DNA of 64,000 bases. Origin: an uncultured Bacteroidales bacterium. Its GTDB lineage: Bacteria > Bacteroidota > Bacteroidia > Bacteroidales > Muribaculaceae. The notes below the pieces were generated by a model. The model made no database searches, had not been told where the DNA came from, and saw only the letters and a program-made list of their open reading frames with translations. Shown here piece by piece: positions 2,589 to 37,206 of this stretch (position 1 is the first letter of the stretch; each line of letters opens with the position of its first letter). The stretch is taken from NCBI GenBank assembly GCA_902777835.1, contig CACYVC010000011.1:124001-188000 (forward strand), in the 5' to 3' direction. The translations under genes and the position numbers were made by a program.

Positions 2589-5153
2589 TCAGTTTCCCAG
2601 CAGCAGGTTATAGAGCACGGTGATGTCGGCGGCAGTGATGTTGCCGTCGCCGTCGGTGTCGCTGGTGGCGGTGTAGGCCTCGTCACCACCTAGCAGATAG
2701 TTGTAGAGGGCGGTGACATCGGCGGTTGTTATCACGCGGTCGCCGTCCACATCCACCACACGCAGCTCCAGGACGGCGGGTGTGGCCTTGCCATCGGCTG
2801 TGGTCACGGTGATGGTGGCGGTGCCGTTCTGCACGCCCACAATCATGATGGCTTTCTCGCTTGCCATCGCCGGAGCCTTGCTGCCGCTTGGGGCGGCCAT
2901 CTCCTCCATCATGGCCAGTGCCTTGCCCTCCTCGGCGAACTGCATCAGCCCAGCGGCAGGAGCATTGGTGCGGTTTATCACGCGCGCCACTGCCACGCTT
3001 GGATCACTTGTGGTCACAACCAGCTCCACAGACACGTCGGGCGAGCAGGTGGGATATACCGTCAACGCCTGGTTGGCACCAATAATGGCATTGTCAAGGT
3101 TGAGAGTAATGATGACATTGTTGGTCACCGTCACATGGCAGGTTGCAGTTTGGTCAAGCACTTTAGCAGTAATGTCGCACTCGCCCTCGCCCACGGCAAC
3201 AACCTTGCCGTTCTCGTCAATAGTAGCAACACTTGTGTTGCTCGACGACCAAGTGGGAGTGAGGCCAGTATTGTCGGGGGTGATTGTGACGCTTAAAGTC
3301 TGCTCGTTGCCCACATTCATCTCAAGCGACTCGTAGCTGAGGGTGAGAGTGATTTCGGGATAAGAAACGATAACATGACATGAAGCATATACAGCGGGAT
3401 TTGAGGCAAGAGTGGCAAAGATATCACACTCACCTTCTCCTGTAGCAGTTACCACTCCATTTTCATCTACAGTGGCAACAGCAGGATTATTTGAGGCCCA
3501 TAGGATATTACTTCCTTCAGGATCAGCAACTGCTGCCAGTGACAAAGTCCCCCATTGAATAAGGTTTGCTGTTGTTATATCCAAAGTAATCTTATCGGTG
3601 AGGTCATTAACCATATTGTTGAAATTATGCCAATAGTCTGCCATAAAATAAGAAGCCATTGAAGCAGCAGGCATATGAAGTGCCCCGTCATAATTAGAGA
3701 ATGTGCCCGATGAGCATGAGGGTGGAGTCGCGGCATAGCAGTTCACGACATCGGGGGTAAAACCGAAGTTCCCCAACGAGGTGATGCCACTGCCAATGTT
3801 TACAGTTTTAATTTGGCTAATGGAAGGCATATTGTTCTTGGGATACCATGCACCGTTTCCAGTAAATGTCAACGATGTCAAGCCACTGCAACCAGAGAAG
3901 GCATACAAGCCAATCGTCGTCACCGAGTTGGGGATGGTCACCGAGGTCAAGCCAGTGCAATATCCGAAGGCCCTTTCGCCAATCGACGTCACCGAGTTGC
4001 CTATGGTCACCGAGGTCAAGCCAGAGCAACCCCAGAAGGCATTATCGCCAATCGTCGTCACCGAGCCCGGGATAATGGTATTCTTGCAACCACTGATTAA
4101 AGTGTTAGTAGCAGTCTCTATTATCGCGTTGCAATTGTTGCGGGAATCATATTTTGTGTTTCCGCTCTCCACAACCATTGAGGTCAAGCCACTACAATAA
4201 CTGAAGGCATAGTCGCCAATCGTCGTCACCGAGTTGCCTATGGTCACCGAGGTCAAGCCACTGCAATAACAGAAGGCATATTCGCCAATCGTCGTCACCG
4301 AGTTGGGGATGGTCACCGAAGTCAAGCCACTGCAATCACGGAAGGCACCGCTGCCAATCGAAGTCACCGAGTTGGGGATGGTCACCGAGGTCAAGCCAGC
4401 GCAACCCTCGAAGGCATGTTCGCCAATCGTCGTCACCGAGTTGGGGATGGTCACCGAGGTCAAGCCAGTGCAACCAGCAAAGGCAGAGCTGCCAATCGTC
4501 GTCACCGAGTTGGGGATGGTCACCGAGGTCAAGCCAGTGCAACCCAAGAAGGCACAGCTTGCTATTCCAACGCAACCAGCTTTTAAAACAATTGAGATGC
4601 CATTAGGCATTGTGCCTTTATACTTATATGCCACCATTCCAGCATAGACCAAACCATCTGGTTGATTATTGTACCATGCAGTTTCATCGAAGGCATAGCT
4701 GCCAATCGTCGTCACCGAGTTGGGGATGGTCACCGAGGTCAAGCCACTGCAACCTGAGAAGGCATCATCGCCAATCAACATCACCGAGTTGGGGATGGTC
4801 ACCGAGGTCAAGCCAGTGCAACCATAGAAGGCATCGTAGCCAATCGTCGTCACCGAGTTGGGGATGGTCACCGAGGTCAAGCCACTGCAACCTGAGAAGG
4901 CACCGTATCCAATCGTCGTCACCGAGTAAGTAGTGCCATTGTAGGTGACTGATGATGGAATATTCACTGCTCCAGTGTATTCGTTTGAATATTCATAAGA
5001 ACTACTTCCTCTGTAAGTCACAGTGGCTTCGTTGCCGTTTATATTGTAATAAATGCCCCCCACCTCAAAGTCGTGGGCACTCGCCAGCTGCGGCAGCATT
5101 GCCAGCGATAGCAGCAATGCGAGTTCTGTAAAATTGTTGATTAAATATCTCAT
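2589..5153 (-). CDS. BspA-like leucine-rich repeat surface protein with Ig-like domains and C-terminal dockerin
   Basis: Secreted surface protein, probably adhesive, of about 854 residues. I start it at 5153 (MRYLINNF), which gives a clean signal peptide ending ...QLASA before HDFEVGG; a frame-open ATG at 5240 only adds an implausible extension. Order: signal peptide (1-26); about thirteen BspA-type (type 5) leucine-rich repeats of about 23 residues (consensus [19 protein letters not shown]) to about residue 460, with two non-repeat inserts typical of this family; a C-cap; two BIG2-like Ig domains containing [19 protein letters not shown] and [19 protein letters not shown]; a third Ig-like stretch; then a type I dockerin over the last ~57 residues with two calcium loops ([26 protein letters not shown]). 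There is no T9SS tail, so anchoring may be through the dockerin. The repeats are nearly identical at DNA level. BspA function is known from oral Bacteroidales; adhesion here is inferred. Confidence 0.9.
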
Positions 5154-5447
5154 AATTTTGAAAGTATTGATTAATAATAAATTAAATGTCAAACTGAACG
5201 CCAAGTTCAAAGCCTTGGCTTGTAACAATGTTAACAACACGTTGCCAAATGGCTTTGTAACCCAGCGAAATCTTGTTGCCTAAGCAAGGTGCGCTTAACG
5301 TTTAGCAGGACATTACATCCCTCTGCAATTACAAGAATAAATAAAACACTAGTTACCAATGCGTTAGCACAATATATCTAACTGACGTGTTGAGATTTGC
5401 GTTTTTACTACACAATTGTGATGATGTTAATGGTTTTAATTTTGATT

Positions 5448-27402: not shown

Positions 27403-29301
27403 CTAATTGCCTAAAAGCACATTGTAAACTGCAGTTATGTCGGCACTTGTGATTTCTCCGTCACCGTTAACGTCGCTTGTTGCGATGAAAGTCTCGTCAC
27501 CGTTGAGAAGATAATTATAAAGACAAGTTATGTCAATAGTAGTTACTTCTCCGTCGCAATTCACGTCGCCAAAGACATGGGATCCGCCATTTGCTGTCAC
27601 TACAACATCAAAGTCGGGAATGGTGACCTCGGTCTGAGCGTCAGCACTGGTAAGCACCACGTTGCTCACATTGATTGTGGCAGTATCCTCGAAGTCACTA
27701 TTCGCAGTGATACTGAGAGACATCACCTCACCAGAGTTTCCAGTAAAATTAGCAGATGGGAAGCTGAAAGCAGCAATCAACACAGTGTTGCCATCAGTGT
27801 TTGCCACCACTTGGTGAGTCGCGGTCTTGCGGTCGCTTAGTGTTGCGCCATTGAAAGTGAGACCAGCGGGCATCATGAGCTTAAGCTGGAAACCTGCTAC
27901 TGGTGTCACCTCGTTGTCCATAATCACAGCCACTTGTTTAGTTTCTCCTGGAGCAATCTCAAAGTCGTTGATATAGAACCTATCTTCAGGCACATACACA
28001 CCGTCGGCAGTCACTGTAACGTTGAAGTTATCGAGAGTAGCTACTTCGTTGTTAGGCTCCGCTAAACGCACATTGCTCACATTAATTAGAACCAGACCCT
28101 CAAATGTGCGGTCGGCAGCCACCTCAATGTTGACAACAGCACCAGAGTCACCTGTGAAGGTATGCCCATTCTCGCCATTCACTTCCACCTTATAGCTATT
28201 CTCATTAATAGCTGTAACAGTCAACGTGTGGTTCAGGGCGCGGTCGGTAAGTTCAAAGGCATCCTCGGCGACTGTCAGGCCCTCGGGAATAGTCATCTCA
28301 AAGCTGATACCGCTAAACTGCGTTACCTCATTCTCAAGCAGCACAGGCATGATTTTAGTCTTGCCAGGCTGAACAGAGAAGTCCTCGATAATCAGATGAT
28401 CGCTGGGGACATACACGCCATTAGCGGTCACTGTCACTTGGAAGTCCTCCACAGGGCTCTCGTGAGCGTCGCTGGTGGAGAGCATCACGTTGCGGAAATC
28501 AATAATCGCGCTATTAGCAAACGACTCGCTTGCCGTGAAGTCGATATACATAATGTCGCCACTATTGCCACTGAAATCGGCTGTGGGGTAACCAAATGCC
28601 ACCACAGTCCAGTGGTCGCCATTATTGTTAGCAACGAGCTGGTGAGTCTCGCCCTTACGGTCGCTAAGGGTGAACGAGCTAGCTGTAGTTGTAATGCCCT
28701 CAGGCAAATACATATCAAACTGGAAACCAGCGATAGCACTCGCATAGTTATCAAGAACAACAGGCACTGTCATGGTGGTGCCAGGGGTAATCTCAAAATC
28801 GTCCATGTAGAACTCGTTGCCAAGCACTATGATGCCCTGTGCTGTCACAGTCACCGACAAATCAGGATGGCTGTACTCATGAGCATCGGCTGTGGTAAGG
28901 GCAATGTTCTTCACGTTGATAACTGCCTGACCTACAAAGTCAGCAGCAGCCACCACATCGATGGTCAGCACCGCCCCACTCTGCCCTGTGAAATTAGTGG
29001 CAGGGAAGCTGAATGCCATCACCGTGAAGTGGTCGCCATTGACATTCGTAATCAGTTGGTGAGAGCTTGAGGCACGCTCACTTAGCTTGAAGCCGCCATC
29101 GGCAACACTAAGTCCAGAAGGCATGTAAAGGTCAAACTGGAAGGCCGCAAAGTCGGTGTCGGGATTATCGAGCAAGACCGGCACAGTAATTGTGTCTCCT
29201 GCCTGGATCGAGAAATCGTCAATGCGCAACTCATTAGCCGCCTGAGCTTGCAGTGCTCCAGCCACCAACATTATGGTTAAAATATGAAATAGCTTTTTCA
29301 T
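27403..29301 (-). CDS. Secreted protein with four cohesin-like modules and a C-terminal dockerin
   Basis: 632 residues. Signal peptide 1-22 (...GALQAQA). Four tandem modules of about 138 residues follow (24-160, 162-300, 301-439, 440-574). Each has the pattern hydrophobic-DF-x-I-xPGxT-xxVPVxLDN, then AGFQFDxYxPxGL, SDRxxxxHQ, a glycine-rich GxSGxVxxIxxxA and INVxNVxLxxxDA. This is the order of strands in cohesins (PF00963-like), though they are diverged. The last 56 residues (577-632) are a type I dockerin with two calcium loops (DVNCDGEVTTIDI, DVNGDGEITSADI). No T9SS tail is present. Such a multi-cohesin plus dockerin design resembles a scaffoldin, but no catalytic or carbohydrate-binding module is present. 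Last gene of a probable three-gene operon. The cohesin call is by motif and should be tested by structure prediction. Confidence 0.82.
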   Translation of the reverse strand: MKKLFHILTIMLVAGALQAQAANELRIDDFSIQAGDTITVPVLLDNPDTDFAAFQFDLYMPSGLSVADGGFKLSERASSSHQLITNVNGDHFTVMAFSFPATNFTGQSGAVLTIDVVAAADFVGQAVINVKNIALTTADAHEYSHPDLSVTVTAQGIIVLGNEFYMDDFEITPGTTMTVPVVLDNYASAIAGFQFDMYLPEGITTTASSFTLSDRKGETHQLVANNNGDHWTVVAFGYPTADFSGNSGDIMYIDFTASESFANSAIIDFRNVMLSTSDAHESPVEDFQVTVTANGVYVPSDHLIIEDFSVQPGKTKIMPVLLENEVTQFSGISFEMTIPEGLTVAEDAFELTDRALNHTLTVTAINENSYKVEVNGENGHTFTGDSGAVVNIEVAADRTFEGLVLINVSNVRLAEPNNEVATLDNFNVTVTADGVYVPEDRFYINDFEIAPGETKQVAVIMDNEVTPVAGFQLKLMMPAGLTFNGATLSDRKTATHQVVANTDGNTVLIAAFSFPSANFTGNSGEVMSLSITANSDFEDTATINVSNVVLTSADAQTEVTIPDFDVVVTANGGSHVFGDVNCDGEVTTIDITCLYNYLLNGDETFIATSDVNGDGEITSADITAVYNVLLGN

Positions 29302-29321
29302 ATCTCAATGAGCATAAGAGA

Positions 29322-31037
29322 TTATTTCACAAGTACTTTTTTGCCGTTTATCACATAGACACCAATAGGCAAGCCCTTAGTAGCCTCGGCGGGGTTCATG
29401 CCTTGACGCACGAGCACGCCGCGCATGTCATAAACGTTAACACCCTCACCATCAACGCCAATCTGAGAGATGGCAGTAACGGCAGCATTGGTGTTCACAT
29501 TGGGCAGCACACTCTCTACCTCGTTTGCCTGAGTGAAGAAAATGTCGCTGATGATGATATTATCATTTTCACTAAGCGAAGCACCGGCTTTCACCTTCAG
29601 AGTGATGATCGCATCGCTGCCAGCAGTTATCTCGGCGTTGTCGAGTGAGAAGCCAAGCAGACGAATCGAGCCATCGGGGTTAACACCGGTCATCAAGGTG
29701 TGAGAAGCGGCGCGGCCAGTGAGTTCAGCGCTCTCTAAAGTGAGGCTCTGTGACAGAGCAATGTCCATCTGGAATCCAGCATAAGCAGTGGAGTTGTCGA
29801 GATTTATTGTGATAGTGCCTGTGGCAGCGTCATAATCACCAAGACTCAGCTCGTCGTTGATAGTAGCCTTTGGAAGTCTCAGCGCTGGAGCATCAGTGTT
29901 TCCTACAGCGATATTGGCAATAGCAATCAAGTCGGTGATGTTGATAGATCCACTTGCGTTAACGTCGGCAGCTTCCTCAATGAACACCTCGGGAGTAATG
30001 CCTACTATATAATTAGCTACACACATCACGTCGGTAACGTTAACCTTCTTGTCGCCATTCACATCGCCAGGGATCACAGGCTCCTCAAATGGCAGAGTGC
30101 CACTCTCGAGCACAACTTTTGCGTTGCCACCAATGAAGCCCATACCATCGCGAATCATGTCGGCAAGGGTGATGTTGCCCATGTCAAACACTGTCTCAGA
30201 GGTCACCTCAGCTTGGGCATACTGATTGGTATAAACATCGGCATAGCCATCAGCATTTGGTCCCCAGTTGTAAAGGCAGAAATGATATGTAGTACCTGTC
30301 TGGTCGTCCTTATATTGGGCAAGCTCTTGGTTGGGATTCTCCCAGCAGTTCTTGCCTGCGCCAGGAGTGAACTCAGGCACAAAACCAAAGTCGAGGAAGT
30401 TGTAGATTGTCACCTTATCATTATAATAGTAGAGATAAACGGGGAACGATGCCACCTCGCCTGTGTTGTAAACGTGGTCGTTTTCATCGAAGTCAATCTC
30501 ATCGTATGTCATCGTGGCATTACTGATGAGGAACTGAGTAAACATGCCATTGTCGTACATCGCACCAGCGTTAACATATTCATCATTGTCGGGATCATAA
30601 TAGATCAGGGCAAGGTTCCATGTGGTAGAAATAGTAAAACCACTGGTATTGACACGACCCGACAAGCTGGTGTTGAGCACGGTGTTCACATCGCTATTGT
30701 TTACTACCGACTGAGCAACAACATAAAGGTAGCAAGTGTAGGTCTCATACTGATAGGTGTAAATGCACTGAGGCAAAAACTGGATAGTGTTGGCTGACCA
30801 GTTCACGCTGAAAGTGAGGTCAGCATCCATAGCAAAATAGTTTGAAACCGTCACACGACTGGTGCCACCAGTATATGCCATCGAAACCCGATTTGAACCA
30901 GTAGTGGCACCCGACTGAATGTCACGATCAATCTCAATGTTGATGCTTGCAAGCTTGGAGGCAGTAAACGGCGAAGCCGCCCACGAAACAATAGTCGTGG
31001 CAAGAGCAAGCAATAAGAGAAATAACTGTTTTTTCAT
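29322..31037 (-). CDS. Secreted protein with internal dockerin, cohesin-like module and T9SS-type tail
   Basis: 571 residues. Signal peptide (MKKQLFLLLLALATTIVSWA). Residues 22-320 are an unrecognised, beta-rich, Tyr-rich domain. A dockerin-like pair lies at about 324-380 (GDVNGDKKVNVTDVMCVANY and ADVNASGSINITDLIAIANI), of a different subtype from those at 2.6 and 27.4 kb. Residues about 390-515 form one cohesin-like module (INLDNSTAYAGFQMDIALSQ, then DAIITLKVKAGASL). The last 39 residues (VNVYDMRGVLVRQG ... GLPIGVYVINGKKVLVK) are a T9SS type A-like sorting signal, so it should be secreted through T9SS and attached to the surface. The next gene starts 20 bases on. No enzymatic motif is visible. 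Confidence 0.82.
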   Translation of the reverse strand: MKKQLFLLLLALATTIVSWAASPFTASKLASINIEIDRDIQSGATTGSNRVSMAYTGGTSRVTVSNYFAMDADLTFSVNWSANTIQFLPQCIYTYQYETYTCYLYVVAQSVVNNSDVNTVLNTSLSGRVNTSGFTISTTWNLALIYYDPDNDEYVNAGAMYDNGMFTQFLISNATMTYDEIDFDENDHVYNTGEVASFPVYLYYYNDKVTIYNFLDFGFVPEFTPGAGKNCWENPNQELAQYKDDQTGTTYHFCLYNWGPNADGYADVYTNQYAQAEVTSETVFDMGNITLADMIRDGMGFIGGNAKVVLESGTLPFEEPVIPGDVNGDKKVNVTDVMCVANYIVGITPEVFIEEAADVNASGSINITDLIAIANIAVGNTDAPALRLPKATINDELSLGDYDAATGTITINLDNSTAYAGFQMDIALSQSLTLESAELTGRAASHTLMTGVNPDGSIRLLGFSLDNAEITAGSDAIITLKVKAGASLSENDNIIISDIFFTQANEVESVLPNVNTNAAVTAISQIGVDGEGVNVYDMRGVLVRQGMNPAEATKGLPIGVYVINGKKVLVK

Positions 31038-31061: not shown

Positions 31062-32999
31062 TTATTTATAAAGTCTCTTAGTTGTGGTGCGATTGCCATT
31101 GTCGTAGGTAGTTACAACAACGTTTACACCGTTAAACGGAGTTGCGCTCTCAATGCCAAGCATGTTGTAATACTTCACGTTAACAACCTTGCCTGATGTC
31201 TCTACAGTGTTGATGGCGGTGGGAACATCTATTAAACGTAATGGATAAACTATATACTCGGCCGATAGGTCATCAATAACAGGCTCACTCTGGTTGCCAT
31301 CTTTCAGAAGCGGAGCACCACTGGCAGCAGGCGCCACTTTTCTCAATATTGCGTCAAACTCATAGGCATATCCATCTTGTGGATTACCTGCTGGGTAATA
31401 ATCCCAGTTAACCTTGATACCACCTGATAGGTTATCTACATTACCGTCACTCATAGTGTAGAAATTGCCGTCGGCAGCGTTGTAACATGCCCAAGTGATG
31501 TAGGCATATTCCTGCACTTTAGGCGCCACGAAGAAGAAATGGCTATTGGATGCATAGTAATCCTCGTTGAAGCTTGGCATGATATAGATGTTAGGCTCGT
31601 AAGGGGTAACATCACCTGCCACAGGTGTTGAGGTCACTGCAATAGTGGGGTTAACCTTGTCAACGAGCTTGCCAGTGATGCTCTTACCCTTGATTATCTT
31701 TCCCACATAGTCGTCGGGAGCGGCAACTCCAGTAAGCATCACCCAGTTACTCTGATCGAAATCGGCAACTGGCTGCAGTTTGGTGTTACCCATATATTCA
31801 GCTGCTACTTGACCCAGGAAATCGATTTGACCATCACTAATCTGCGATGGATATTTATACTTGCCTAAGTCCTTTGCGAAGAGCACTGCCCCCATAGTCA
31901 CAGGATAGTCATTATAAGAGGGTCCAAGACGGCAAGAGCCGTTAACAAAATTCCATCCACCATCGTCGTTATTATTTGCCAAACCACTGGTCAGACTGAA
32001 ATAATTCTTGTTATTTTCACGGCCATAAAAATTCACAACTGCACTATAATGAACTCCATCGGTAGTTTCCATAGGCTGACCAACGGTAGGATTCCAGTCG
32101 TTATTATTTGCTTGGCCCAAAACATAGTAAGTGGGATATGAACCATTATTTACAAAACCTGTGATATCTTCTGCGCTTTGCGAAACAGTGAGTGCATTTG
32201 TGCTTAAATCCAAATCAAGTTTATAGCGGCCTTTTTCAATCATAAAGCTGTTTTGATTTCTGCTAACTCCCATAGGAGCGCTAAGCACGCCGTCAACAGT
32301 AGTAACACCCACGAGATCGTCATAAACCTCATATTCCTTACCTACTGTTCCATCGTTGACAATGTCGACAAGGTCGGTCTTATAAGGAGACAATACTGAG
32401 TGTTCAAAGTACTCTATAACACGTACAGGTGCAGTATTGTAAGTCTTATAAACAAAATGCCCCCACGCTCCTAAAGTTATTACTTCATTTTCTAAATCAA
32501 TACTACCATAACACTTGCTTCCAAGTCCATAATCTGGCACAGTACCATCAAAAGCATCTAAGTATGGATTGCTTTGACGATTCGTTGACGCTGGAGAAAT
32601 ATACCCATAAACAGTTGCACCATTTGATAATGAGTAATATCTTTTAAATGCCGGAAAATAGTCAACATTGAGAGGACCGTAATACACCTGTGTCCATTCA
32701 AAAGTAGCTTTTGTATCACTCTGCCAATTTATTTTACTACTCTGAATTATAAGATTTAAAACTGGAGCCGGTAAATTCTTTGAATATGGACTAACAAAAA
32801 AATTGTTAAATGTTAATGTGCCATTTCCAGCATCCCAAACAGCAGTAACGACATTTGTTCTTACAACTTCACCGTTGCGATAATCTTCTTGCAAGAAGTC
32901 CTGAGTAAACGACTCTGGCTGTGCCTTCGCTATATTATTTGTCACTATAGTTGTGAACAGTGCGGCAAATAAGACAGATAAAGTAAATAATCTTTTCAT
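31062..32999 (-). CDS. Large secreted protein of unrecognised family with T9SS-type tail
   Basis: 645 residues, signal peptide to about residue 26 (NNIAKA). Residues 30-215 are homologous to the neighbouring 266-residue protein: both have FLQEDYRxGEVVRTN, a strand pair LTFNNFF/LTINNFY, a W-x-SDTKATFEW/W-ESETKANFTW segment and VIEYFEHS/VIEYFESS. Residues ~290-400 resemble the N-terminal part of SusE/SusF-like glycan-binding modules (YYVLGQANNNDWNP, then METTDGVHYSAVVNFYG), and another beta-rich stretch follows to about 590. The tail VVNVKYYNMLGIESATPFNG ... TTTKRLYK is a T9SS sorting signal. First gene of the three-gene leftward run (24-base gap to the next). Function unknown; glycan binding is a guess. 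Confidence 0.75.
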   Translation of the reverse strand: MKRLFTLSVLFAALFTTIVTNNIAKAQPESFTQDFLQEDYRNGEVVRTNVVTAVWDAGNGTLTFNNFFVSPYSKNLPAPVLNLIIQSSKINWQSDTKATFEWTQVYYGPLNVDYFPAFKRYYSLSNGATVYGYISPASTNRQSNPYLDAFDGTVPDYGLGSKCYGSIDLENEVITLGAWGHFVYKTYNTAPVRVIEYFEHSVLSPYKTDLVDIVNDGTVGKEYEVYDDLVGVTTVDGVLSAPMGVSRNQNSFMIEKGRYKLDLDLSTNALTVSQSAEDITGFVNNGSYPTYYVLGQANNNDWNPTVGQPMETTDGVHYSAVVNFYGRENNKNYFSLTSGLANNNDDGGWNFVNGSCRLGPSYNDYPVTMGAVLFAKDLGKYKYPSQISDGQIDFLGQVAAEYMGNTKLQPVADFDQSNWVMLTGVAAPDDYVGKIIKGKSITGKLVDKVNPTIAVTSTPVAGDVTPYEPNIYIMPSFNEDYYASNSHFFFVAPKVQEYAYITWACYNAADGNFYTMSDGNVDNLSGGIKVNWDYYPAGNPQDGYAYEFDAILRKVAPAASGAPLLKDGNQSEPVIDDLSAEYIVYPLRLIDVPTAINTVETSGKVVNVKYYNMLGIESATPFNGVNVVVTTYDNGNRTTTKRLYK

Positions 33000-33149: not shown

Positions 33150-33950
33150 TTATCTCATAATTTGCTTAGAAGTGGTCTTTTGACCGTTGCTGTACTCCTT
33201 AACGATGATATTCAGGCCATTGAATGGTTCTGACGACTCAACACCAAGGCTATTGTAGTAGCGAGTGTTCACCACTTGTGCATTGGCATTAACATTCTCA
33301 ATACCAGTGTTCACACGAGTCATGTGAGAGCTCTCGAAATACTCAATAACGACAGATGCGCTCATGTTATTCCAAGTGTTATTGCCAATCACGCATCCCC
33401 AAGGGTCAGTGATATCGATAGTGCCAGCCTCAAGGTCGATAGTACCATGGCAATCCTGGCCACCATAATAAGCATAATAGCATGAAACTGGGAGAGTATT
33501 AGTCTCAGGATCATACATTCTCACTGCACTGTTAACATGCTGGAAACGGCTTACCACAGCAGCCTTATAAGTGCGGAATGAGGCATAAGAGAAAGGCAGA
33601 CCTTCAAACAAATCGCTCTGGCCCATCGAGTACGCGCGCCAAGTGAAGTTAGCCTTAGTCTCGCTCTCCCAAGTCAAAGTGGTGGGACTAGAATAATCAG
33701 TAGCGTAAGATGGGATTACGAGATTAACAACTTGGTCGTTGACCATTTCATTAGAATAGAAATTGTTAATAGTCAAAACACCAGTAGCATCATCCCAAGT
33801 AACATTGACAGTGTTTGTTCTTACAACCTCACCACCGCGGTAGTCTTCCTGGAGGAACTCAGAATTAAACGAAGCGCGTTGCGCATAAATGTTGTTAGCA
33901 CACATTAACAAGAATGCAAACAATCCAAATAGTGTAACAAATCTTTTCAT
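33150..33950 (-). CDS. Secreted protein paralogous to the neighbouring 645-residue protein, with T9SS-type tail
   Basis: 266 residues: signal peptide (MKRFVTLFGLFAFLLMCANNIYA), one beta-rich domain (about 26-215) shared with the start of the next protein (FLQEDYRGGEVVRTN, LTINNFYSNEM, YGGQDCHGTIDLEAGTIDI) and a T9SS-type tail (VVNTRYYNSLGVESSEPFNG ... TTSKQIMR) also shared with it. It looks like the minimal form of the family, from which the larger one arose by insertion, or the reverse. It has its own promoter and terminator, so it is regulated apart from the following operon. I do not recognise the domain. Confidence 0.78.
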   Translation of the reverse strand: MKRFVTLFGLFAFLLMCANNIYAQRASFNSEFLQEDYRGGEVVRTNTVNVTWDDATGVLTINNFYSNEMVNDQVVNLVIPSYATDYSSPTTLTWESETKANFTWRAYSMGQSDLFEGLPFSYASFRTYKAAVVSRFQHVNSAVRMYDPETNTLPVSCYYAYYGGQDCHGTIDLEAGTIDITDPWGCVIGNNTWNNMSASVVIEYFESSHMTRVNTGIENVNANAQVVNTRYYNSLGVESSEPFNGLNIIVKEYSNGQKTTSKQIMR

Positions 33951-35322: not shown

Positions 35323-37206
35323 TTACCTTATTATCAATTTCTTTCCATTAAATATATACACTCCTGGTGGCAGTCCTTCAGTACCCTGATCAGCAGTGCG
35401 CACTCTCACACCGTCGATGCGGTACACGTCGGCTGAGTTGTCATCGATAGCGACCGTTGTTATGCCCTCATATTCTTTATAAGTAAAATATCCAGGGTTA
35501 GCTGTTCCACCATCAATGTGTGCAAACTCCACACCAGTGTTTGAGGGATTAAAATGCGTACCTTTTTCTCCTGTAAGCATATAGCAATTGAAAAACATAT
35601 TTGCGCCGTCATCTTCAACATTATCCACTTTCCACTTTTCGCTCACGTAGATAGTCTGTAGGTTCTGGCACTCCTCAAACATGGCCCACATATATTTCAC
35701 ATTCTTAGTATTGAAACCACTCAGGTCAAGACTTGTTAATGATGTGCATTTGTAAAACATGTCTGCCATGTTAGTGACTCTCGAAGTATGGAAATTACTG
35801 AGGTCTATACTCGTCAATGCCGTGCAGCTGGCAAACATACCAACTGTGTTCAACACTTCTGAAGTATTTATATTCTCTATTCCCACAATTGTATTCAGCT
35901 TGTCGCATCCTCCAAAAAAACTTTTCAGGCTCTTGAATTTCAACTTAGAGAAAGATGGGTCAAAAACACACTTGGTGATTTCTTTGTTGTCGTCGCACGA
36001 TCTAAGATTCATTATAATGGTTCCAGGGCGGTTATCATATTGATTGTCATAATAAAAAGTGAGAGTCTTATTCTCCTTTACAGCATATACCCTATCACCT
36101 TCGGGATCCATTGGTTGAATGCCCATAATTGCCACCTGATTATTATTGAATCCTCCAACGTCCATCAATAGATAGTAATTATTCTGTTGACCTCCCCATC
36201 CCCAATTGATGTGAAAATAAGGGGCGTCAAGGTCTTCATATCCATACCCATCAATAACGAAAGCATGACCACCATCAGAACTAAATCCCGAATAATATAC
36301 AGGTCTTCCATCTTTTAACTCCTCATAAAGCAGTTCATCCCATCCATCATCATCAAACCGTGAACGGTGTTCAAGATAATTATCATAATTAAAATATAGG
36401 TAAAACGCATTGGCAGCATTTTCTGATGATGCTCCGCTCGAATCGGCATAATCCATTTGAGCCGAACAACCACACAAGAGCATCAGTGTCGCAATGGCAT
36501 CGGCCTGTTCTTCTGTGAAAGGTATATTGCCATTATAATCGTTTAAAATATTTTCCCAATCAATTGTTGTGATCGGCACCTCGGGCAAACCAATATCCAG
36601 TGTGAAGGTTGAGTAATCGGGGATGACATCGGCAGTTTCCATAGGCCACTTGTGACGATACATAATCTGAGCCATAGCGGTCGCCACGCATCCAGTAACG
36701 CAACGATAGCCAGTTTTAGGATTTATGGGACATTTATTGTTATATGGCTCACCTTGACTGAAAAGGCAGTCCATCAATGGCAGTATAACCTCGCGCTCGG
36801 GAGAATCTTTTGGAGAAACCTTTGCCTCGGGATGCTCCCGCAAATAGGCCACTTGTGCGACATACTCTCCGAGCCATGCTTGCATATTACATGGCATATT
36901 ATCGGCGTCAACATTTCCGTCGGGTGAGAAGCCCAATATCTCAGGCATGCGCTCATCGCCACACACTACCACATAACCGCCATTGGCCTCATCGTTAATT
37001 ACATACAACTCGCTGCGGTCTATTGCTACCACAAGTTTTGGTGCTAGATTAGTGGCTCTCGCAACCCGCGTTGCCTGTCGTTTAAAGAATGACTCAGCCT
37101 TAGCCATCGCCTCCTGTCGCGACACCTGCTGACCCCACAATGCAAGAGGCAGCATAGCAACCATGAGTGCAAAAATTCGACTTAAAGATTTTGTATTATA
37201 TGTCAT
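35323..37206 (-). CDS. C10-family cysteine protease with BspA-like surface repeats and T9SS-type tail
   Basis: 627-residue secreted protease of the streptopain/interpain type. Signal peptide to about residue 25; inhibitory Spi-like propeptide to about 150 (ATRVARATN, then YVVVCGDERMPEILGFS). The catalytic domain has Cys173 in TGCVATAMAQIMYRHKWP, His314 in DGGHAFVIDGYG and the NWGWGG loop near 335. Residues about 370-570 are DUF285-type repeats (MFASCTALTSIDLSNFHTS, MFYKCTSLTSLDLSGFNT, MFEECQNLQTIYVSEKW). The tail VYRIDGVRV ... GLPPGVYIFNGKKLIIR is T9SS-like. It should thus be a surface-anchored protease with a binding module. It is the last gene of the leftward run from tatA, 21 bases after DUF3109, and may be transcribed separately. 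Confidence 0.92.
   Translation of the reverse strand: MTYNTKSLSRIFALMVAMLPLALWGQQVSRQEAMAKAESFFKRQATRVARATNLAPKLVVAIDRSELYVINDEANGGYVVVCGDERMPEILGFSPDGNVDADNMPCNMQAWLGEYVAQVAYLREHPEAKVSPKDSPEREVILPLMDCLFSQGEPYNNKCPINPKTGYRCVTGCVATAMAQIMYRHKWPMETADVIPDYSTFTLDIGLPEVPITTIDWENILNDYNGNIPFTEEQADAIATLMLLCGCSAQMDYADSSGASSENAANAFYLYFNYDNYLEHRSRFDDDGWDELLYEELKDGRPVYYSGFSSDGGHAFVIDGYGYEDLDAPYFHINWGWGGQQNNYYLLMDVGGFNNNQVAIMGIQPMDPEGDRVYAVKENKTLTFYYDNQYDNRPGTIIMNLRSCDDNKEITKCVFDPSFSKLKFKSLKSFFGGCDKLNTIVGIENINTSEVLNTVGMFASCTALTSIDLSNFHTSRVTNMADMFYKCTSLTSLDLSGFNTKNVKYMWAMFEECQNLQTIYVSEKWKVDNVEDDGANMFFNCYMLTGEKGTHFNPSNTGVEFAHIDGGTANPGYFTYKEYEGITTVAIDDNSADVYRIDGVRVRTADQGTEGLPPGVYIFNGKKLIIR

Follow-up and report, generated by a model that had tools for sequence, protein, structure and literature searches.

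The DNA analysed here, referred to as the window, is a stretch of 64,000 nucleotides (nt) from an uncultured Bacteroidales bacterium of the Muribaculaceae (assembly GCA_902777835.1, contig CACYVC010000011.1, positions 124,001 to 188,000), and our subject is a pair of adjacent genes in it, A and B, which an earlier note made from the letters alone (the sequence-only reading) had taken for parts of a possible cohesin-dockerin surface system. The coordinates and architecture given there for both genes were confirmed. Gene A (27403..29301, minus strand, as are all features of A and B below) encodes a scaffoldin-like protein of 632 amino acids (aa) that is without a tail of the type IX secretion system (T9SS) and consists of four tandem cohesin modules of 136-139 aa and a C-terminal type I dockerin (27412..27570), parts that are matched by a profile of the modules and by the Pfam dockerin model PF00404. 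Module 1 (28831..29238) has its best match in module 1 of close relatives, and modules 2 (28411..28827), 3 (27994..28410) and 4 (27583..27993) are 47%, 37% and 44% identical to it. Gene B (29322..31037), which is separated from A by 20 nt, encodes a putative anchor of 571 aa that runs from an N-terminal domain through a dockerin (29916..30071) and one cohesin module (29487..29861) to a T9SS-type C-terminal tail (29325..29490). The dockerin and the module were borne out by profile matches, and the tail, which is kept across 10 orthologues, matches the T9SS-tail model TIGR04183 (29346-29504) below its threshold. Both dockerins have two calcium-loop-helix repeats and lie above the PF00404 cut-off of 22.9 bits (A, E 1.5e-13, 51.1 bits; B, E 7.7e-11, 42.5 bits); in sequence type the dockerin of A agrees with those of the putative cargo proteins described below, and that of B is of a divergent type. 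Read by eye, both proteins begin with a signal-peptide-like N-terminus.

Fold of the modules and conservation of the gene pair

AlphaFold2, run for module 2 of gene A (window 28396-28839) with an alignment of 71 modules, returned a model with a predicted local distance difference test score (pLDDT) of 93.8 and a predicted template modelling score (pTM) of 0.86. This one module modelled is a jelly-roll beta-sandwich of ~140 residues. A Foldseek search of the PDB with it gave 91 matches at E <= 0.001, with TM-scores as high as 0.77 and a lowest E of 5.1e-7, and all 50 of the matches listed are titled cohesin, cohesin-dockerin complex or cellulosome/interaction module; the top match is a non-cellulosomal cohesin of Archaeoglobus fulgidus (PDB 2xdh, E 5.1e-7, 15% identity). 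Ordinary immunoglobulin (Ig)-like or fibronectin type III modules, the alternative that had been set beforehand as the refuting outcome, are ruled out by this fold search. In addition, a profile built from 15 modules of the window's own genome matches a module in a genome of another family (G268) at E 4.6e-24, and the same stretch matches the Pfam cohesin model PF00963 at E 2.5e-8 (34.7 bits, above the cut-off of 24.1). Judged by their predicted fold the modules are cohesins, and the sequence chain agrees. A WD-repeat protein came first when the PDB sequences were searched with a five-module profile (E 3.2e-4); this match was judged compositional because no single stretch passed alone.

In the alignment of modules N31, R61 and H66 are invariant and Q40, D42 and N117 are conserved. 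From the order of the strands, H66, Q40, D42 and N117 presumably lie on strands of the sheet that binds the dockerin in known cohesins.

Scanning genomes with gene A gave 10 loci, all in records labelled uncultured or metagenome-assembled genome (MAG) of Bacteroidales, Prevotellaceae or Muribaculaceae; a source is named for four of the 10 records, in each case a ruminant. One locus (L139) is divergent and was left out, which leaves nine close relatives. In all nine, B stands directly before A, and their A comprises six cohesins and a dockerin, so that the tandem cohesin array of this non-catalytic scaffold has six members in each relative and four in the window. The window modules match modules 1-4 of the three relatives compared, which indicates that modules 5 and 6 are missing from gene A here. 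Two further genes, C and D, complete a block D-C-B-A, with C present in 9/9 relatives and D in 8/9 (the ninth locus begins at a contig end). Both A and B are under purifying selection, the median ratio of nonsynonymous to synonymous substitution rates (dN/dS) being 0.067 for A (35 of 45 pairs finite) and 0.073 for B (45 of 45), with dS near saturation in this comparison. Across ten gene B sequences the mean pairwise identity is 97% for the dockerin and 78% for the cohesin.

Linkage of cohesins with dockerins

We inspected 40 cohesin loci in 39 genomes of the order and family samples described below, the first 20 picked for strong or multiple cohesin matches and the next 20 made up of 8 that complete the order list and 12 that extend the family list. 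Cohesin and dockerin share a gene or adjoin in 33 of the 40: they are found in neighbouring genes in 28 and in one gene only in 5. Among the 28, the pair in G056 rests on a weak dockerin match, and G135 and G060 are probably the same records as L132 and L134 of the nine relatives. The remaining seven loci have no clear dockerin (G193, which is ambiguous, G292, G396, G438, G012, G027 and G110), and several of these are on short contigs. Within the order sample, linkage was seen in 18 of the 22 cohesin-positive genomes other than the window's own. Six dockerin partners were scanned: three are S8 subtilases (G361, G205, G331), two are BspA-type leucine-rich repeat (LRR) proteins (G053, G010) and one is a laminin-G/InlB-repeat protein (G288). 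Seven scaffolds were scanned as well; three match the T9SS-tail model (G416, G386 and, just below the cut-off, G268), and one (G045) ends in a dockerin as gene A does.

These data bear on the idea that the cohesin-fold modules are adhesive or carbohydrate-binding spacers and that the dockerins work without a partner, for instance as calcium-dependent caps. Such an arrangement would suit the several genomes that are dockerin-rich and have no matching cohesin. Nevertheless, we regard it as improbable, given that cohesins and dockerins are linked in 33 of 40 loci and also co-occur across genomes, and that N31, R61, H66, Q40, D42 and N117 are invariant or conserved in the modules.

Matches per genome in the survey samples are lower bounds. 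Every one of the 10 genomes in the genus sample, the window's own included, has at least 60 dockerin matches and 3-16 cohesin modules, with 60-128 dockerin matches in each of the nine others (in four or more of them at least the number counted). Of 149 genomes in the family sample, searched at E 0.001, 41 have matching cohesins and 56 have dockerins. Outside the genus, dockerins occur in 23 of 31 cohesin-positive and 23 of 108 cohesin-negative genomes of the family (p 1e-7, with the overlap counted by hand), and in the order sample (295 genomes, E 1e-4; dockerin matches in 1 of 14 control genomes) they occur in 22 of 23 and 59 of 272, respectively (Fisher p 8e-13); the force of both statistics is reduced by the fact that they ignore phylogeny and partly reflect proteins with both modules. 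In the phylum sample 12 of 395 genomes have matches, the window's own included. Four genomes (G241, G342, G266 and G254) have many dockerin matches and no matching cohesin; many of the matches listed for them are partial, starting from about position 8 of the profile, and some of the partial ones lie in very long frames. They may represent either a different dockerin-like family or a system whose cohesins went unseen.

Dockerin repertoire and putative cargo of the genome

In the window's own genome PF00404 gave 140 matches at E <= 1, of which 133 were at <= 0.001; with the loose setting 9 of 14 control genomes match too, 2 of them over the cut-off. We read 139 of the 140 matches as 134 proteins, leaving out one match on contig C49. 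The dockerin is C-terminal in 87 of these proteins, just behind the signal peptide in 22 and internal in 16, and the rest are five anchors (X-dockerin-cohesin-tail) and four cohesin scaffolds. A whole-genome search with the first five modules found 16 cohesin modules in nine proteins, and an iterated local hidden Markov model run on fetched stretches gave the identical 16. Three scaffold-anchor neighbour pairs are present: A/B, D055/D056 (contig C11) and D096/D095 (contig C25).

Pfam tallies were made on 130 of the 134 proteins, four fragments shorter than 150 aa being excluded, and PF00404 was found at E <= 1e-5 in 111 of the 130. The counts of cargo families are lower bounds, taken from the 25 of 32, 25 of 27 and 25 of 32 families listed in three batches. 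They comprise at least 25 LRR_5, 14 FGE-sulfatase, 11 C10 peptidase and 10 CotH proteins; at least 5 CBM26, 4 alpha-amylase, 4 M6, 3 S8 and 3 NAGPA; and, more rarely, at least 2 GHL10, 1 GH53 and 1 GH18. No cellulase family is among the families listed for dockerin proteins in these batches, and the Pfam scan of gene A listed no carbohydrate-binding module (CBM).

A true cellulosome-like complex for plant fibre could draw on the ruminant gut source named for four of the 10 relatives, on the dockerins of the GH53, GH18, alpha-amylase and CBM26 proteins and on a dockerin count in the same range as that of Ruminococcus flavefaciens (222). With cellulases missing from the families listed, and with LRR, FGE, C10 peptidase and CotH as the commonest cargo families, we consider such a complex very improbable. 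The label "non-cellulosomal" that the sequence-only reading attached to the system fits to this extent, and its remark that no glycosidase is nearby holds among the 25 window proteins scanned, which are a subset of the window's genes.

Some further members of the repertoire were seen in passing. Two closely similar scaffold-anchor cassettes, at C11:93065-98822 and C25:70774-74393 (L082 and L106), have scaffolds that combine two cohesins with an Ig-like region and half of a dockerin (a single calcium loop), and the anchors adjoining these scaffolds carry, by eye, repeats or LRRs. At nine loci (L052, L067, L081, L097, L100, L113, L118, L126 and L127) there are small proteins with the dockerin right behind the signal peptide, and downstream of it lie FGE-sulfatase domains or a 'YVDLGLPSGTLWATMNIGA' domain of the FISUMP type. 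Two dockerin fragments of 92 residues at contig ends (C37:2 and C25:79765) have an identical start and end and are probably one repeat split by the assembly.

A scaffold-anchor model

The scenario that we favor, and consider likely, is that A and B are the scaffold and the anchor of a T9SS-anchored Bacteroidales cohesin-dockerin surface assembly whose cargo is mainly adhesive, proteolytic and starch-related. Because it has a signal-peptide-like start and a T9SS-type tail, the gene B product is probably exported and anchored at the outer surface. Its cohesin, which adjoins the tail, would hold a dockerin, the simplest candidate being the one on scaffold A, and the four cohesins of A (six in the relatives) would bind the dockerins of the ~130 other dockerin proteins. 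The cargo displayed in this way would include LRR adhesins, C10, S8 and M6 proteases, CotH proteins, FGE-type domains, amylases and CBM26 proteins. The sequence-only reading had envisaged a surface lattice held together by cohesin-dockerin contacts, and a lattice of A and B alone is not supported: in a genome with ~134 dockerin proteins, a scaffold for cargo display fits better, although in several other families the locus does resemble a small closed set. Its interpretation as a whole is partly supported.

It is also conceivable that A, B and linked paralogues form a small closed set whose members, by binding one another, cross-link surface adhesins or proteases into a mesh like the lattice of the sequence-only reading, with the other dockerins serving other partners. 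Consistent with this idea, (i) seven genomes of other families with only one or two dockerin matches (G288, G205, G268, G331, G386, G169 and G285) have adjacent cohesin and dockerin genes; (ii) some such pairs have T9SS-type tails on both genes and (iii) the gene B dockerin differs from the cargo dockerins and is nearly invariant. On the other hand, genomes of the genus have 60-140 dockerins each, the dockerin of gene A belongs to the cargo type, and no partners other than the nine cohesin proteins were recognized. We therefore think a closed set unlikely.

Several findings weigh against the model of a T9SS-anchored scaffold with A and B as its core. At the level of sequence, Pfam hmmscan up to E 10 did not list Cohesin for gene A or B, the best sub-threshold match on the A modules being the Ig-like FixG_C (E 0.0015). 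When the genome was searched with PF00963, two modules reached 23.6 and 23.1 bits, and 24.1 summed, at a cut-off of 24.1 (in the loose search 2 of 14 control genomes match, 1 over the cut-off), and among seven scaffolds of relatives one was above this cut-off, three were below and three were not listed. One profile search of PDB sequences placed a cohesin (E 0.015) behind a WD-repeat protein, and in a second the A. fulgidus cohesin was best (E 0.22) with unrelated proteins close behind. The AlphaFold2 model of the dockerin-cohesin-tail part of gene B was poor (pLDDT 54, pTM 0.44) and uninformative on docking. As for anchoring, the gene B tail scored 15.3 and 20.4 bits in two TIGR04183 searches with a cut-off of 23, and in the 87 proteins with a terminal dockerin no T9SS tail follows it, which leaves the surface location of these proteins unproved. 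Finally, of the 19 order-sample genomes with at least four dockerin matches, 9 lack a matching cohesin, several of these (G241, G342 and G266 among others) showing partial hits, and G001 likewise lacks one in spite of its 31 dockerins; a wealth of dockerins is therefore not in itself a sign of such a system.

Export and exchange of C-terminal tags

That the genome encodes a T9SS is clear from its translocon SprA, found at 2708 bits. TIGR04183 has 16 matches in the genome at E <= 0.1, 9 of them over the cut-off. By crude pattern counts, most dockerin proteins have a hydrophobic N-terminus and no T9SS tail behind the dockerin.

The C10 proteases are informative with regard to the two kinds of C-terminus. 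There are 18 in the genome, 12 with a dockerin (two of these in broken frames) and six with a T9SS-type tail; the tails were called by eye, with TIGR04183 matches in three of the six proteins, one above the cut-off. Two tandem C10 neighbours, C7:23556 and C7:27849, carry different tags and are 70% identical over 839 aligned columns. In a tree of the C10 proteases strongly supported branches force at least two changes of tag, and the tag labels are no more clustered than shuffled ones. Judging from these sequences the dockerin and the T9SS tail look interchangeable as tags, which suggests a common destination. We can extend this tentatively, as a possibility that we hold to be less probable than its opposite, to the proposal that in this genus proteins are sorted to the surface by two tags, the T9SS C-terminal domain (CTD) and, as a second one, the dockerin: Sec-exported, tail-less dockerin proteins would plug into the cohesins of a few T9SS substrates and, as passengers, leave the cell or stay on it, and the neighbouring protease paralogues would be natural tag swaps.

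In two C10 genes (C3:101735-104089 and C42:25069-27404) the reading frame is interrupted within the dockerin or ahead of it. In the C42 gene the dockerin is in a neighbouring frame, which means that the gene is broken, and in the C3 gene (C3:103022) the break is inside the dockerin.

Other genes of the window

The PF00404 search showed that all three dockerins called in the window are real: those at 27412-27570 and 29916-30071 in A and B, and a third at 2598-2753. The third is the C-terminal dockerin of a putative cargo gene (2589..5240, minus strand) that also has BspA-type LRR and Big_2 domains. Gene C (31062..32999, minus strand; 645 aa), which lies 24 nt upstream of B, encodes a secreted protein with a T9SS-like tail called by eye, and gene D (33150..33950, minus strand; 266 aa) resembles both ends of C. 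Elsewhere in the window there is a T9SS plug protein (PF17116; 45845-47290), ~15 kb from gene B, and a C10 peptidase without a dockerin (35323-37206) that has an I69 propeptide, LRR-like repeats and, by eye, a T9SS-like tail.

Discussion

There is precedent for dockerins in rumen Bacteroidetes with hardly any recognizable partner. In one study dockerins were found in Bacteroidetes rumen MAGs and a recognizable cohesin in none of them, and the options offered were that these dockerins are not needed for a cellulosome or that the cohesins are too distant for recognition (PMC7260996). Table 1 of another gives 5 dockerins and 1 cohesin for Bin136 (Bacteroidetes) and 2 cohesins and no dockerin for Bin129 (Bacteroidetes) (PMC6071333), and a third reports that four clostridial MAGs encode putative scaffoldins and that two Prevotella MAGs encode dockerins (PMC7480376). 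Unlike the present case, a scaffold-anchor operon is not described in the portions available of PMC7260996 and PMC6071333, and in the full-text literature, which does not cover subscription papers and outside preprints, we found no description of a Bacteroidales scaffold-anchor system in the portions available. The cell may build a surface protein assembly that has counterparts in other bacteria and has gone unrecognized in this group.

Cohesins of the kind supplied by the window look like the missing partners of the rumen Bacteroidetes dockerins, and the module profile made from this one genome finds distant cohesins across the order. If our model is correct, gut bacteria of the order use scaffolds to assemble proteases and adhesins on the surface of a two-membrane cell. 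How more than 80 dockerin-ending proteins without a T9SS tail cross the outer membrane then becomes a concrete question of secretion. The syntenic scaffold-anchor pair can be tested directly for binding.

Ruminococcus flavefaciens is a monoderm that uses wall anchoring. Its cellulosome resembles the present system in a large dockerin repertoire (222) that includes many LRR and some peptidase cargoes, in having several dockerin groups and in cohesin proteins that themselves have dockerins, and differs from it in the many CBM and carbohydrate-active modules among its dockerin proteins (PMC2930009). The A. fulgidus cohesin (PDB 2xdh) is non-cellulosomal and comes from a different organism and context. 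The Limousia mucinolysome is a recent example of a cohesin-dockerin complex of gut bacteria that is not directed at cellulose, as we propose here, but it belongs to another genus, is mucin-specific and had its interactions modelled with AlphaFold3 (PMC12997984).

Nearest in kind is the cellulosome-like complex of Ca. Stygibacter, for which a CTD-anchored cohesin scaffold has been proposed in the Cloacimonadota (PMC8542988). Common to that system and ours are anchoring through a T9SS-type CTD, putative in our case, and a scaffoldin-like protein with tandem cohesins. A further likeness is that C-terminal dockerins occur there on peptidases (S8 and gingipain-like) and on homologues of GH18 and GH57. 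In Stygibacter, however, a single scaffoldin-like protein of 3,755 aa has CBMs and its own CTD, and four dockerin enzymes are named, whereas in the present case a dockerin closes the scaffold, the tail belongs to a separate partner protein, ~134 proteins have dockerins and the cohesins largely escape Pfam.

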